Source of the DNA: Blastococcus sp. CT_GayMR16
Lineage (GTDB): Bacteria; Actinomycetota; Actinomycetes; Mycobacteriales; Geodermatophilaceae
Assembly: GCF_004570875.1 (NCBI RefSeq)
Contig: NZ_SPQK01000001.1
Coordinates: forward strand, 248,001-312,000
Direction of reading: 5' to 3'
DNA: 64,000 bases
This document shows, one piece after another, positions 4,491 through 9,361 of this stretch. The notes below the pieces were generated by a model, which was given only the letters and a program-made list of their open reading frames with translations, made no database searches and had not been told where the DNA came from. Position numbers and translations under genes: made by a program. Position 1 is the stretch's first letter. Each line of letters begins with the position of its first letter.

Positions 4491-6236
4491 TCATCGCAGC
4501 CGGCGGGTGTTGTCCGGCAGCCGCACGGTCACGCCCTGCGCGTCGAGCCACTCCATCAACGGGACGGCGACCCGCCGACTGGTCCCCCACGCCTGCCGCG
4601 CCTGACTGAGCGTGAACGGCTGGGGGATCGCCGCCAGGCGCGCACGGGCATGCTCGGCCACGCCCGGTGCCAGGACGACCCCGTCGGCGATGCGCACGAG
4701 CTGTCCGCTGCGGACGGCCGCCGCCAGTTCCCGCACCCCGAGGCCCGCGACGGCCAGCTCCGGTGCCTCCGGGGCGGCGAAGGGATCGCCGGCGAGCCGC
4801 GCCCGGATCTCGTCCACGGCGCGCTGCACCGCGGCGGGGAGCGCTGCGGCGTCGTCGACGACTCGACCGTCGCGCAGGACGAACGGCGACCGCACGACGG
4901 CGGGCAGCAGTTCGGGATCCGGCAGGTCGAGAGCCCGGCGCAGCACCTCGGCCGGCGGACCCGGCTCCAGCGGACGCAACTGCCGGTAGCGGGCCACCAC
5001 GGCGGGCACCCGGACGGCGAGTTCGTCGGCGAGTCCGGCCGCGACCAGCCAGGGCCCCTGCGCCGTCGCGTCCGGCGGGACCGGCCAGCCCATCGCGACG
5101 AAGTCTTCGGCCCGCACGACCCGGCGCCGCGCGAGTTCGGCCGCGGCGCCGGCCGTACCGGACGGACGCGCGGCGAGCTCCGCCGCCCGCTGACGGGCCG
5201 CGCCTCTCCGCCGCAGCTCCGGGGGATCCACATCCCGCACGTCGGCACCCAGCACCCGCCGGCTACCCGGGTCCCGCAGCAGGAGACGGTCACCGACCCG
5301 CAGCGGCAGCGCCGTCGCCAGGCGCAGCCGCACGGCCGCGCCGTCCAGCGGGCGCAGCCGGGCGCCGACGGTCGCCGACCCCACGTGCACGACCGGCTCG
5401 GCAGGCAGCCGATCGGCCGGCTCGGACGTCAGCGTCACGTCGACGACGTCAGTCGTGCGGAACGCGCCCGGGGTCAGCAGTGCGTCCCCCCGGGAGAGCT
5501 CCTCGACGGCGACGCCCCGCAGGTTCAGCGCCACCCGCGCGGTCGCGGTGGCCCGCTCGACCGGCTCGCCGAGGGACTGCACGCCTCGAACGACCACCTC
5601 CCGGTCGCCGAGCCGCAGCCGGTCCCCCGTCGCCACGGCGCCCGCCGCGAGCGTTCCGGTGACCACGGTGCCGGCGCCGCGGATCGTGAACGCCCGGTCG
5701 ATCCAGAGCCGCACCGGCGCGGCCGGATCGGGCGCCGGGAGGCCGGCGAGCACCCTTTCGAGCCCGGCCACCAGGTCCGGCAGCCCGTCGCCGGTCAGTG
5801 CGCTCACCGCCACCCCCGGAACCGACCCCAGGGACGTCGAGGCGAGCCGTTCGCGCACGTCGGCGAGCACCGGGGCGGGGTCCGCCAGGTCGGCCTTCGT
5901 CACCGCGAGCAGGGCATGCCGGACGCCCAGCGCGTCGAGGACGGCGACGTGCTCGGCCGTCTGGGCCGACCATCCGTCGTCGGCGGCGACCACGATCAGC
6001 GCCGCGGGCACCGACCCGACGCCGGCCAGCATGTTGCCGACGAAGCGCTCGTGCCCGGGCACGTCGACGACCGCGAGCCGGCGGCCGGAGGGCAGCGTCG
6101 TCCAGGCGAACCCGAGGTCGATGGTCAGCCCGCGCCGGCGCTCCTCCGCCCACCGGTCGGGCTCCATGCCGGTGAGCGCCCGGACCAGGGCGGACTTGCC
6201 GTGATCGACGTGCCCCGCGGTGGCGATCACGTCCAC
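4491..6236 (-). CDS. selB: Selenocysteine-specific elongation factor SelB
   Basis: SelB carries selenocysteinyl-tRNA to the ribosome and binds the SECIS hairpin in selenoprotein mRNAs. The 581-residue protein has the GTPase motifs GHVDHGKS (residues 8-15), DVPGHERFVGNML and TKAD, then two beta-barrel domains and a C-terminal winged-helix region ending PLMEWLDAQGVTVRLPDNTR, typical of SelB rather than EF-Tu. Its start overlaps the end of selA by 10 bp. Because the tRNA partner has a CUA anticodon, this SelB is predicted to direct Sec insertion at UAG. Start ATG at 6236. Confidence 0.95.
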   Translation of the reverse strand: MDVIATAGHVDHGKSALVRALTGMEPDRWAEERRRGLTIDLGFAWTTLPSGRRLAVVDVPGHERFVGNMLAGVGSVPAALIVVAADDGWSAQTAEHVAVLDALGVRHALLAVTKADLADPAPVLADVRERLASTSLGSVPGVAVSALTGDGLPDLVAGLERVLAGLPAPDPAAPVRLWIDRAFTIRGAGTVVTGTLAAGAVATGDRLRLGDREVVVRGVQSLGEPVERATATARVALNLRGVAVEELSRGDALLTPGAFRTTDVVDVTLTSEPADRLPAEPVVHVGSATVGARLRPLDGAAVRLRLATALPLRVGDRLLLRDPGSRRVLGADVRDVDPPELRRRGAARQRAAELAARPSGTAGAAAELARRRVVRAEDFVAMGWPVPPDATAQGPWLVAAGLADELAVRVPAVVARYRQLRPLEPGPPAEVLRRALDLPDPELLPAVVRSPFVLRDGRVVDDAAALPAAVQRAVDEIRARLAGDPFAAPEAPELAVAGLGVRELAAAVRSGQLVRIADGVVLAPGVAEHARARLAAIPQPFTLSQARQAWGTSRRVAVPLMEWLDAQGVTVRLPDNTRRLR

Positions 6237-7543
6237 CGACGGGCCACCTCCAGCACGGCCGCGGCCAGCGCGTCATCGGCGGACGGCGGCAGGCTGCGCA
6301 GGTTCAGCAGCGTGCGGTCGTTCTCGACGTAGCCGACGACCGGCGGCGAGCCGAGGCGCAGCGGATCGGCGAAAGACGGAAGCAGCGACACGGCCGCGCT
6401 GGGGAGCGGGTGCTCCGGCGCCCCTCCCCCGCCGACGCGGGCGTCGGCGTCAGCGGCGACGGCGTCGATGCCTGCAGCGCCGAGCCGGCCGGCCAGGGCG
6501 CGGGCCCGGGCGCGCAGTCCGTCGAGGTCGGCGGCGAGCATCTCCTGGACCGGCGGCAGCGGTCCGCGCAGGGTGGCCTCCAGCGCGGCCAGCGTGGTCT
6601 TGTCCACCCGCAGCGCGCGGTACATCGGGTGCCGCCGCAGCCGCTGGACGACCTCCGCCCGGCCGAGGACCAGGCCGGCCTGCGGTCCGCCGAGCAGCTT
6701 GTCGCCACTGGCCAGGACGACGTCGGCGCCGGCGGCCAGGGTGCTCTGCAGGTCGGGCTCGTCGGGCAGCAGCGGGTGCGGGCGGAGGAGCCCGGAACCG
6801 ACGTCGGCCACCAGGGGCACCCCGGTCCCGGCGAGCGCGGCCGCCAGCTCCCCGACCTCGACCTGCCGGGTGAAGCCGCGGACGACGAAGTTGGACGGGT
6901 GCACCTTGAGCACCGCGCCGGTGTCCGGACCGAGGGCACCCCGGTAGTCGGCGAGGGTGACGCGGTTCGTCGTCCCCACCTCGCGCAGGCGGGCACCGGT
7001 GGCGGTCAGCAGCTCGGGGATGCGGAACCCGTCACCGATCTCCACCAGCTCGCCGCGGGCGAGGACGAGCTCCGGTCCCTGGCCGAGAGCGGTGGCGACC
7101 AGGGCGAGGGCGGCGGCGCAGTTGTTGACCACGAGAGCGGCCTCGGCGGCGGGGACAGCGGCCAGCAGGGCGGCGATCGCGCCCTCGCCCCGGGCACCAC
7201 GCCGCCCGGTGCCGAGGTCGAGTTCCACGTCGGTGGTGCCGGCGGCTGCGACGACCGCCGCGACGGCCGCCGGCGACAGCGGCGCCCGACCCAGGTTGGT
7301 GTGCACGAGGACGCCGGTCGCGTTGAGCACCGGCTGCAGGCTGCTCGCCGTCCCCGGCAGGGCGGCCAGGACGGCGTCGACGGCGTCCGGCGGCGCGACC
7401 TCACCGTCCCGCACCCGCTGCTGCACGCGCTGGACGACGTCCTTCAGCAGGCCGCGGCCCAGCCGCTCGCCGGCGTCGGTCAGCCGTGGGTCGGCGAGCA
7501 GTGTGTCCGTTCGCGGCACCTGTCGCCTCGGGTCGTCGATCAT
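6227..7543 (-). CDS. selA: L-seryl-tRNA(Sec) selenium transferase SelA
   Basis: SelA is the PLP enzyme that converts seryl-tRNA(Sec) to selenocysteinyl-tRNA(Sec) using selenophosphate. The 438-residue protein has VLNATGVLVHTNLGRAPLS near residues 72-90, VVNNCAAA, REVGTTNR and the PLP-lysine segment ASGDKLLGGPQAG with the lysine at 282. The start lies 29 nt downstream of the selC tRNA on the same strand, so tRNA, selA and selB may form one transcript. Length is slightly below the E. coli protein (463). Confidence 0.96.
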   Translation of the reverse strand: MIDDPRRQVPRTDTLLADPRLTDAGERLGRGLLKDVVQRVQQRVRDGEVAPPDAVDAVLAALPGTASSLQPVLNATGVLVHTNLGRAPLSPAAVAAVVAAAGTTDVELDLGTGRRGARGEGAIAALLAAVPAAEAALVVNNCAAALALVATALGQGPELVLARGELVEIGDGFRIPELLTATGARLREVGTTNRVTLADYRGALGPDTGAVLKVHPSNFVVRGFTRQVEVGELAAALAGTGVPLVADVGSGLLRPHPLLPDEPDLQSTLAAGADVVLASGDKLLGGPQAGLVLGRAEVVQRLRRHPMYRALRVDKTTLAALEATLRGPLPPVQEMLAADLDGLRARARALAGRLGAAGIDAVAADADARVGGGGAPEHPLPSAAVSLLPSFADPLRLGSPPVVGYVENDRTLLNLRSLPPSADDALAAAVLEVARRWT

Positions 7544-7572: not shown

Positions 7573-7668
7573 TGGCGGAGGCGGACGGGAATCGAACCCG
7601 CCTGACCGAGATGCTCGGCCACGTCGGCTTTAGAGGCCGCGGGGGTCACCAGACACCCTGACGCCTCC
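7573..7668 (-). tRNA. selC: tRNA-Sec with CUA anticodon (reads UAG)
   Basis: A 96-nt tRNA with encoded CCA. Its parts on the minus strand are: acceptor GGAGGCG pairing with CGCCTCC; an extended D stem around the 4-nt loop TGGT; an anticodon stem CGGC/GCCG around the 7-nt loop CTCTAAA; a long variable arm GGCCGAG-CAT-CTCGGTC; and T loop TTCGATT. The long variable arm, four-base D loop and long acceptor/T stack identify tRNA-Sec. In the loop, U33 is followed by CTA, so the anticodon is CUA, not the usual UCA. The eighth acceptor pair is a T-C mismatch and one D-stem pair is mismatched. It lies directly upstream of selA. Confidence 0.95.
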
Positions 7669-7731: not shown

Positions 7732-8319
7732 ATGACCCGCACCGTGTCCCGCTCCCCCGTGACGCTGCCGCTGTCGATCACCCCCGAGCAGGCCGCGGCC
7801 ATCGCCGTCGCGCTCGCGGCCCAGCCCGACGGCCCGTACGCCACCGAAGGGCGCGGCGCGCTCGACAAGGTGCTCGCTGCCCTGGAGCCCGACCCCCGGC
7901 GCAGGGAGGCGCTGGTGACGAGCACCCTGCTCGTGCGCGTCGAGGCAGGGCGCGCCGACGCCGTGCGGTCCGTGCTCGAGCAGGCCCTGACGGGGCACCG
8001 AGTGGTCGTCGTCAGCTACCGGGACGCCAAGGGCGAGGCGAGCCGGCGCGAGGTGGAGCCTCAGCTCCTGGCCCGTACTGCCGAGCGCGAGTACCTGGTG
8101 GCCTGGTGCCGCGAGCGGGAGGCGATCCGGTGGTTCCGGCAGGACCGCATCGAGAGCGCGGAGCTGACCGCCGAGTCCGCCCCGCGTCGGGACCCGGCGA
8201 CCTTCGGCGCTCCGCCTGCTGACGGGCACCCCACCCATCCGGCGGGCCGGGCGCTGGGCGGGCGCGCGCCGGATCCCCGTCCCCGGCTGACCCTGCTGCC
8301 CGGCGGTCGGCAGGACTAG
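7732..8319 (+). CDS. WYL domain-containing protein
   Basis: A 195-residue protein whose central part (about residues 75-140) matches a WYL ligand-sensing domain: VLEQALTGHRVVVVSYRD, then EYLVAWCREREAIRWFRQDRIES. The first 70 residues (PVTLPLSITPEQAAAIAVAL) resemble the segment before WYL in PafB/PafC-type regulators, but there is no DNA-binding winged helix, so it is a shortened form. It lies between the divergent tRNA-Sec and selD. It ends in TAG. A role in the Sec module is possible only by location. Confidence 0.8.
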   Translation: MTRTVSRSPVTLPLSITPEQAAAIAVALAAQPDGPYATEGRGALDKVLAALEPDPRRREALVTSTLLVRVEAGRADAVRSVLEQALTGHRVVVVSYRDAKGEASRREVEPQLLARTAEREYLVAWCREREAIRWFRQDRIESAELTAESAPRRDPATFGAPPADGHPTHPAGRALGGRAPDPRPRLTLLPGGRQD

Positions 8320-8353: not shown

Positions 8354-9361
8354 GTGACCATCGCACCGTCCACGATCAGGCTCACCCAGTACGCGCACGG
8401 CGGCGGCTGCGCCTGCAAGATCCCGCCGGGCGAGCTCGAGGCGGTCGTCGCCGGCCTGACCAGGACCGGCCCCGCGTCGCCGAACGCCGAGCTGATCGTC
8501 GGCCTGGACGACGGTGACGACGCGGCCGTGGTGCGGATCGCCGGCGGACAGGGGCTGGTGCTCACCACCGACTTCTTCACCCCGGTGGTCGACGACGCGT
8601 ACACGTTCGGCCGGATCGCGGCGGCGAACGCCCTGTCGGACGTCTACGCCATGGGCGGCACCCCGGTCGTGGCCGTCAACCTGCTCGGCTGGCCGCGGGA
8701 CGTGCTGCCGGCCGAGCTGGCCGCCGAGGTGCTGCGCGGCGGACTCGAGGTGGCGCAGGAGGCCGGCTGTCACGTCGGCGGCGGGCACTCGATCGACGAC
8801 CCGGAGCCGAAGTACGGCATGGCCGTCACCGGCCTGGTCGACCTCGACCGGATCATCCGCAACGACGCCGCGGTCGCCGGGACGGCGCTGTCGCTGACCA
8901 AGCCGCTCGGGGTCGGGGTGCTCAACAGCCGGATGAAGGCGACCGGCGAGGTGTCGGACGAGGCGGTCGCGTCGATGACCGCGCTCAACCGCGAGGCGGG
9001 AGAGGCAGCCGTCGCCACGGGCATCCGGGCCGGCACCGACGTCACCGGCTTCGGACTTCTGGGCCACCTCTACAAGATGGCGCGGGCCAGCGGGGTCACC
9101 GCAGTGGTCGACGCCTCCGCCGTCCCGTACCTGGCCGGTGCCCGCGAGGCGCTCGCCGACGGCTACGTCTCCGGTGGGACGCGGCGCAACCTCGACTGGG
9201 TCCGCCCGCACACCGACCTGTCGGCGATCACCGAGGACGAGGCGCTGCTGCTCGCCGACGCCCAGACCTCCGGCGGGCTGCTGCTGGGCGGCGAGATCCC
9301 CGGAGCGCCGGTGATCGGCGAGTTCGTACCGCGCGGCGAGTACGTCGTCGTCATCCGGTAG
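8354..9361 (+). CDS. selD: Selenide, water dikinase SelD
   Basis: SelD makes selenophosphate, the selenium donor for SelA, from selenide and ATP. The 335-residue product has the glycine-rich active-site segment GGGCACK with Cys19, Cys21 and Lys22 (equivalent to E. coli Cys17, Cys19, Lys20), then ELIVGLDDGDDAAV, TTDFFTPVVDD and GGGHSIDDPEPKYG. It is the cysteine form, so it does not itself need Sec. It ends in TAG at 9359-9361, showing that UAG is still a stop codon here. GTG start, leaderless-type -10 upstream. Confidence 0.96.
   Translation: MTIAPSTIRLTQYAHGGGCACKIPPGELEAVVAGLTRTGPASPNAELIVGLDDGDDAAVVRIAGGQGLVLTTDFFTPVVDDAYTFGRIAAANALSDVYAMGGTPVVAVNLLGWPRDVLPAELAAEVLRGGLEVAQEAGCHVGGGHSIDDPEPKYGMAVTGLVDLDRIIRNDAAVAGTALSLTKPLGVGVLNSRMKATGEVSDEAVASMTALNREAGEAAVATGIRAGTDVTGFGLLGHLYKMARASGVTAVVDASAVPYLAGAREALADGYVSGGTRRNLDWVRPHTDLSAITEDEALLLADAQTSGGLLLGGEIPGAPVIGEFVPRGEYVVVIR

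Follow-up and report, generated by a model that had tools for sequence, protein, structure and literature searches.

A selenocysteine tRNA with a CUA anticodon in Blastococcus sp. CT_GayMR16, its predicted formate dehydrogenase target, and the distribution of UAG-type selenocysteine loci in Geodermatophilaceae

The stretch of DNA analysed here, hereafter the window, comprises 64,000 nucleotides of Blastococcus sp. CT_GayMR16 (contig NZ_SPQK01000001.1, positions 248,001 to 312,000). At 7573..7668 on the minus strand lies selC, a gene for a selenocysteine (Sec) tRNA with a CUA anticodon, G73, and an encoded CCA end, as determined with Rfam model RF01852, ARAGORN, and the predicted fold. On the same strand, starting 29 bases downstream of selC, is selA (6227..7543; L-seryl-tRNA(Sec) selenium transferase; TIGR00474, 414.6 bits), followed by selB (4491..6236; Sec-specific elongation factor; TIGR00475, 286.6 bits). 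The plus strand carries selD (8354..9361; selenide water dikinase; TIGR00476, 392 bits) and, between selC and selD, a gene for a WYL-domain protein (7732..8319; PF13280, 60.1 bits) that is possibly a regulator. The selA, selB, and selD matches all lie over the NCBIfam model cut-offs. In translation, the SelD of the window has Cys and not Sec in the motif GGCACKIPP, at what we take to be the active-site position.

An initial annotation, made from the letters of the DNA, had described the gene at 7573-7668 as a tRNA-Sec with a CUA anticodon directly upstream of selA and selB, and this observation was confirmed. Alignment to a tRNA-Sec model, which the annotation had proposed, gave 66.4 bits against RF01852 (cut-off 47, E 2.4e-11) over the full length of the model (1-91/91). 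The anticodon loop reads CTCTAAA and is closed by the pair C31-G39; the anticodon itself occupies 7631..7633 on the minus strand (TAG on the plus strand), a placement that follows from the sequence, from ARAGORN (anticodon CTA at position 36), and from comparison with relatives that carry UCA. The hallmarks that had been listed for the tRNA are present: in the minimum free energy fold (energy z-score −3.41 against shuffles) the variable arm is long and the D loop has four bases, and a CCA is encoded after G73. The canonical UCA anticodon is absent from this gene; since PMC5330540 describes anticodon variants of bacterial tRNA-Sec, it is only the canonical UGA-decoding form that is thereby excluded. 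The annotation had also held that a second tRNA-Sec with a UCA anticodon would tell against its reading, and none was found when the whole genome (4,520,567 bases, 47 contigs) was searched with RF01852 and the top three of the five further matches (48.2, 37.8, 33.2, 32.1, and 32.1 bits) were read. These three proved to be tRNA-Ser(UGA), tRNA-Ser(CGA), and tRNA-Leu(UAG), respectively.

No selenoprotein gene had been recognized in the window, and the expectation that the target would lie outside it was borne out. Two selenoprotein families, formate dehydrogenase (FDH) and UGSC, were searched for in the genome. The FDH alpha model returned eight matches, none of which has a TGA inside; the best of them (contig C10, 559 bits) is without a stop, and the gene on contig C22 is the only one with an internal stop, a single TAG. 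Read through this TAG (L015:7013-7015), the gene at G000:C22:20454-23744 encodes a protein of 1,097 residues with U187 in the context NQARIUHSATVPGLGASFGRGG, at the Sec site of FDH, and the protein matches both NF041513 (formate dehydrogenase; 1907.6 bits, cut-off 1400) and TIGR01553 (formate dehydrogenase-N alpha; 944 bits, cut-off 814.2). Selenoproteins with in-frame TGA only, the other outcome that the initial annotation had named as contrary to its reading, were not seen in the two families. The UGSC-family homologue of this genome is of the Cys form and has no TAG, and the FDH on C22 is the sole target found in the two families searched.

The annotation had further suggested looking for a SECIS element downstream of an in-frame TAG, and a hairpin that is conserved and covarying was found there. 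In the TAG-containing FDH gene of this genome, the apical loop GGUCU, which caps a 7-bp stem, lies 18 bases after the TAG. Among 33 FDH loci read directly, from 33 genomes, TAG stands at the Sec site in all 33, the loop is GGUCU in 33/33, and the 7-bp stem is paired in 231/231 cells. Covariation was scored on ten of the 33 loci, picked for diversity; in these, two pairs (columns 15-33 and 18-30) vary on both sides, and the score of 0.311 was reached by 0/500 shuffles, with slid controls, in which the partners were shifted by 1-3 columns, scoring at most 0.057. Count measures were weaker, as the number of pairs changed on both sides (two) was equalled in 60/500 shuffles and the number of further pair types (four) in 40/500, and the single-sequence fold of the element from this genome showed no gain over shuffles (z −0.63 and +0.40). 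The evidence for the SECIS therefore comes from sequence conservation, stem pairing, and the covariation score.

To place the gene among its relatives, tRNA-Sec anticodons were compiled for 112 genomes of Geodermatophilaceae: 101 have CUA, seven have UCA alone, and in four no tRNA-Sec was found. These last are all fragmented assemblies with an estimated completeness of 72-82%; in the two whose best matches were read (G071 and G097) these are tRNA-Ser, and in the other two (G067 and G098) the best matches have E 7.0e-7 and 2.4e-4. The 19-base anticodon arm CGCGGC-CTCTAAA-GCCGAC is identical in 102/102 CUA genes from the 101 genomes. The UCA-only genomes belong to three genera, labelled g5, g6, and g7 (all fragmented assemblies here; L080-L085); their tRNA-Sec genes are close in sequence to the selC of the window and have a U31-A39 pair where the CUA genes have C31-G39. 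In four g7 genomes the Sec site of FDH is TGA, and a UCA tRNA was read in three of these, the fourth (G071) being one of those in which no tRNA-Sec was found.

With the FDH protein of CT_GayMR16 as the query, matches were obtained in 100 of the 112 genomes, and in 98 of those 100 a match covers the Sec site and has a TAG, as judged by stop counts. The remaining two have matches that lack the Sec-site part: that of G033 comprises only the portion after the Sec site, and the piece in G079 (G079:C12:812000-815600, L241) has lost the Sec region and is out of frame, so that it represents either a disrupted copy or a misassembly, and the TGA at its edge is uninformative about the Sec codon. The TGA seen in the FDH copies of G024 and G097 was likewise rejected as a Sec codon, since in both genomes it is the stop of the gene, with TAG at the Sec site. 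UGSC-family matches occur in 54/112 genomes, of which 48 have at least one copy with TAG and six, including CT_GayMR16, have none; among the matches listed for the family genomes, no TGA was found in UGSC-family genes. A SelA tree of 32 sequences was built from 24 of the 67 sequences from CUA loci, chosen at random, together with the SelA of the window, four from UCA loci, two from plasmids, and one from a Coriobacteriia metagenome-assembled genome (MAG) described below. The 25 CUA sequences are set apart by a branch of 100/100 support, and the four UCA sequences likewise. The simplest reading is a single switch from UGA to UAG inside Geodermatophilaceae, its direction being deduced from the fact that UCA is the usual anticodon in bacteria.

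From these sequence comparisons, the window almost certainly holds the selC of a Blastococcus-group actinobacterium in which UAG would serve as a SECIS-dependent Sec codon with FDH as a target; the interpretation of the initial annotation is supported, and its sole amendment is the target now found outside the window. Under the proposed mechanism, seryl-tRNA synthetase (SerRS) would load serine onto the CUA tRNA-Sec, SelA and SelD would bring about the conversion of seryl-tRNA to Sec-tRNA, and SelB would deliver the Sec-tRNA to a UAG directly followed by the SECIS hairpin, where insertion would compete with release factor 1. UAG codons elsewhere would still terminate translation, and recoding would likely be set by context, by analogy with that of UGA in other organisms.

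We give next to no credence to a tRNA-Pyl identity for selC, the label that ARAGORN prints for it (tRNA-Pyl, cta), or to its being some other kind of amber suppressor, as tRNA-Pyl has a short variable loop and the gene of the window has a long variable arm and G73, has tRNA-Sec as its best Rfam family at 66.4 bits, sits beside selA, selB, and selD, and resembles the UCA tRNA-Sec of relatives, with the in-frame TAG standing at the Sec site of FDH. The paucity of targets in this genome, namely one FDH beside a UGSC homologue of the Cys form, would fit a decayed relic whose anticodon arose by chance mutation and which no longer serves Sec insertion; the invariance of the 19-base anticodon arm across the CUA genes, the retention of the FDH TAG and its SECIS with compensatory changes, and the model matches of selA, selB, and selD over their cut-offs make this very improbable. 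We judge it similarly far-fetched that UAG means Sec everywhere, in a full reassignment independent of the SECIS. A CUA tRNA does pair with every UAG, but in the window TAG is the stop codon of selD and of the WYL gene, and in a rough gene call (long open reading frames with a coding-like GC pattern) TAG ends 37/305 genes (TGA 267) over 85 CUA loci, which share one neighbourhood and so do not supply independent genes, and 1/27 genes (TGA 24) in the window. The presence of selB and the conservation of the hairpin after the FDH TAG likewise argue for the SECIS-dependent reading.

Mukai et al. 2016 (Angew. Chem.) reportedly described UAG-decoding tRNA-Sec in Geodermatophilus and Blastococcus. The initial annotation had mentioned such a report for these genera, and PMC5330540 confirms it; the work is cited as well in PMC8124441 and PMC10778597, which mention UAG and other recoded codons. 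According to PMC5330540, Santesmasses et al. 2017 found CUA tRNA-Sec with Secmarker in three Geodermatophilaceae genomes, the UAG targets named are FDH, UGSC, and AhpC, and an AhpC with UAG is reported from B. saxobsidens. The window shares its CUA anticodon, family, FDH target, and predicted Sec at UAG with the systems of Geodermatophilus and Blastococcus, from which it shows no essential difference; it is another genome of the same clade and, since that recoding is already in print, not a new system. It likewise shares anticodon and family with the three genomes of Santesmasses et al., where FDH and UGSC are targets with UAG; the UGSC homologue of CT_GayMR16 differs in being of the Cys form. 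Compared with the canonical selC of g5-g7, the locus is alike in fold, sel genes, and FDH, but has CUA and C31-G39 in place of UCA and U31-A39, and the FDH of g7 uses TGA. The UAG-Sec of this family is an already known system whose distribution is sharpened here, the present comparison extending beyond the report on Geodermatophilus and Blastococcus to 112 family genomes and placing the UCA genera beside the CUA clade.

One genome of the family, Geodermatophilus sp. LHW52908 (G058), may use two Sec codons. It has the family-type CUA tRNA-Sec, an FDH with TAG, a UGSC with TAG, and one selA that was found, and in addition a UCA tRNA-Sec (L076, G058:C17:1-20000, at 1169-1263 on the minus strand) whose 81.8 bits are the top tRNA-Sec score in the family. 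On the opposite strand, 315 bases away, is a CMD-family gene (L076, 1579-2155, plus strand; PF02627 and TIGR01926) for a 192-residue protein of the AhpD/CMD family with TGA at RCFYU, i.e., at a CxxU site, which scores 112.6 bits against the peroxidase-related model TIGR01926 (cut-off 81.8). A search of 394 genomes of the class with this protein (P0002) yielded eight relatives at E 1e-15 or better, all eight with Cys at the CxxU position and none with an internal stop. Among plasmids, 333 records held relatives, all below 60% identity, and no CMD relatives were confirmed in the viral contigs searched. CMD-like and TIGR01926 CxxU proteins are among the selenoprotein families listed in PMC13188914. 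It is possible that the TGA is a nonsense change in a broken gene, as an in-frame ATG follows it. A hairpin downstream of the TGA, with the loop AGUUU, folds no better than shuffles.

The contig in question, C17, has a GC content of 0.638 in its first 5 kb and of 0.731-0.785 from 15 kb on, and between 6 and 15 kb it carries transposase genes of IS30, IS3, and IS21, along with an IS110 match below the NCBIfam cut-off. Contamination is an unlikely source, and the contig is best regarded as chromosomal, because the single dxs match obtained in G058 at E 1e-40 (TIGR00204, 623.8 bits) lies on it and is 84-88% identical to the dxs of 11 relatives. If UGA is indeed read as Sec here, the inherited CUA tRNA-Sec would serve FDH and the UGSC-family gene, the UCA tRNA-Sec would have been gained among transposase genes along with its own TGA-containing CMD selenoprotein, and the one SelA found would act on both tRNAs.

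A general scan for CUA tRNA-Sec covered 84,980 species, each represented by one genome, with a pattern (loop CTCTAAA, set spacing, encoded GCCA) that other CUA forms would escape. It returned 89 stretches: 85 of the Geodermatophilaceae type, one of which (L194) is cut by a contig end, three chance matches without a tRNA-Sec (L146, L173, and L204), and one from the Coriobacteriia MAG (L198, JAUNNF010000009.1). In this MAG the tRNA-Sec with CUA (L198, 7597-7693, plus strand; 64.2 bits) adjoins selA and selB, and grdA (L198, 2319-2795, plus strand; GRDA, 266.7 bits) has TAG at ECFVUTSAGAMDLENQ, as grdB (L249) has at LTSTUGTCTRCGATM. Both TAG positions presumably coincide with the Sec sites known from the GrdA and GrdB proteins. 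Among 30 tRNA-Sec loci read after 100 genomes of the same order were searched, 29 have UCA, L198 alone having CUA. The SelA of the MAG is only 34% identical to that of the window, which suggests, on sequence grounds, that the MAG switched to UAG separately from Geodermatophilaceae. Its tRNA-Sec also has C31-G39, a pair that occurs in many UCA genes of the order as well and is therefore not particular to CUA.

The joint proposition that LHW52908 would read both UAG and UGA as Sec and that the Coriobacteriia MAG independently came to use UAG is, in our estimate, evenly balanced between true and false. No account of either was found in the openly accessible papers searched, which is no proof of novelty, and both cases may be new. 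The window adds one genome to a known natural recoding, and the comparison makes the evolution of that recoding testable, because UCA relatives, some with a TGA-containing FDH, stand beside the CUA clade and allow the switch to be placed within the family together with the change of the 31-39 pair. LHW52908, if the prediction is true, would exemplify a Sec system taking in a gene of the other Sec code, with the gene bringing its own tRNA, and the Coriobacteriia case suggests that a switch of Sec from UGA to UAG arose at least twice. All of these results on recoding are deduced from sequence.

Several further sel loci came to light in the course of the comparison. Blastococcus endophyticus has two separate loci on one contig (L193 and L206, NZ_JABGCI010000003.1), each with a CUA tRNA-Sec, selA, selB, and selD, the selB of L193 being cut by the locus end. 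In the Blastococcus MAG RYN_169 (G036), which is probably a mixed bin, short contigs carry two distinct CUA tRNA-Sec genes (L078 and L045). A record titled Bacillus sp. AZ43 (L129, SPQJ01000003.1) has sel genes that fit the genus of the window, and one titled Jatrophihabitans (L138) has a SelA 80% identical to that of the window over 245 residues. Plasmid-borne Sec cassettes were observed in Arthrobacter sp. YA7-1 (L282) and Tsukamurella tyrosinosolvens (L283), in which FDH genes, selD, a UCA tRNA-Sec, selA, and selB form one block.
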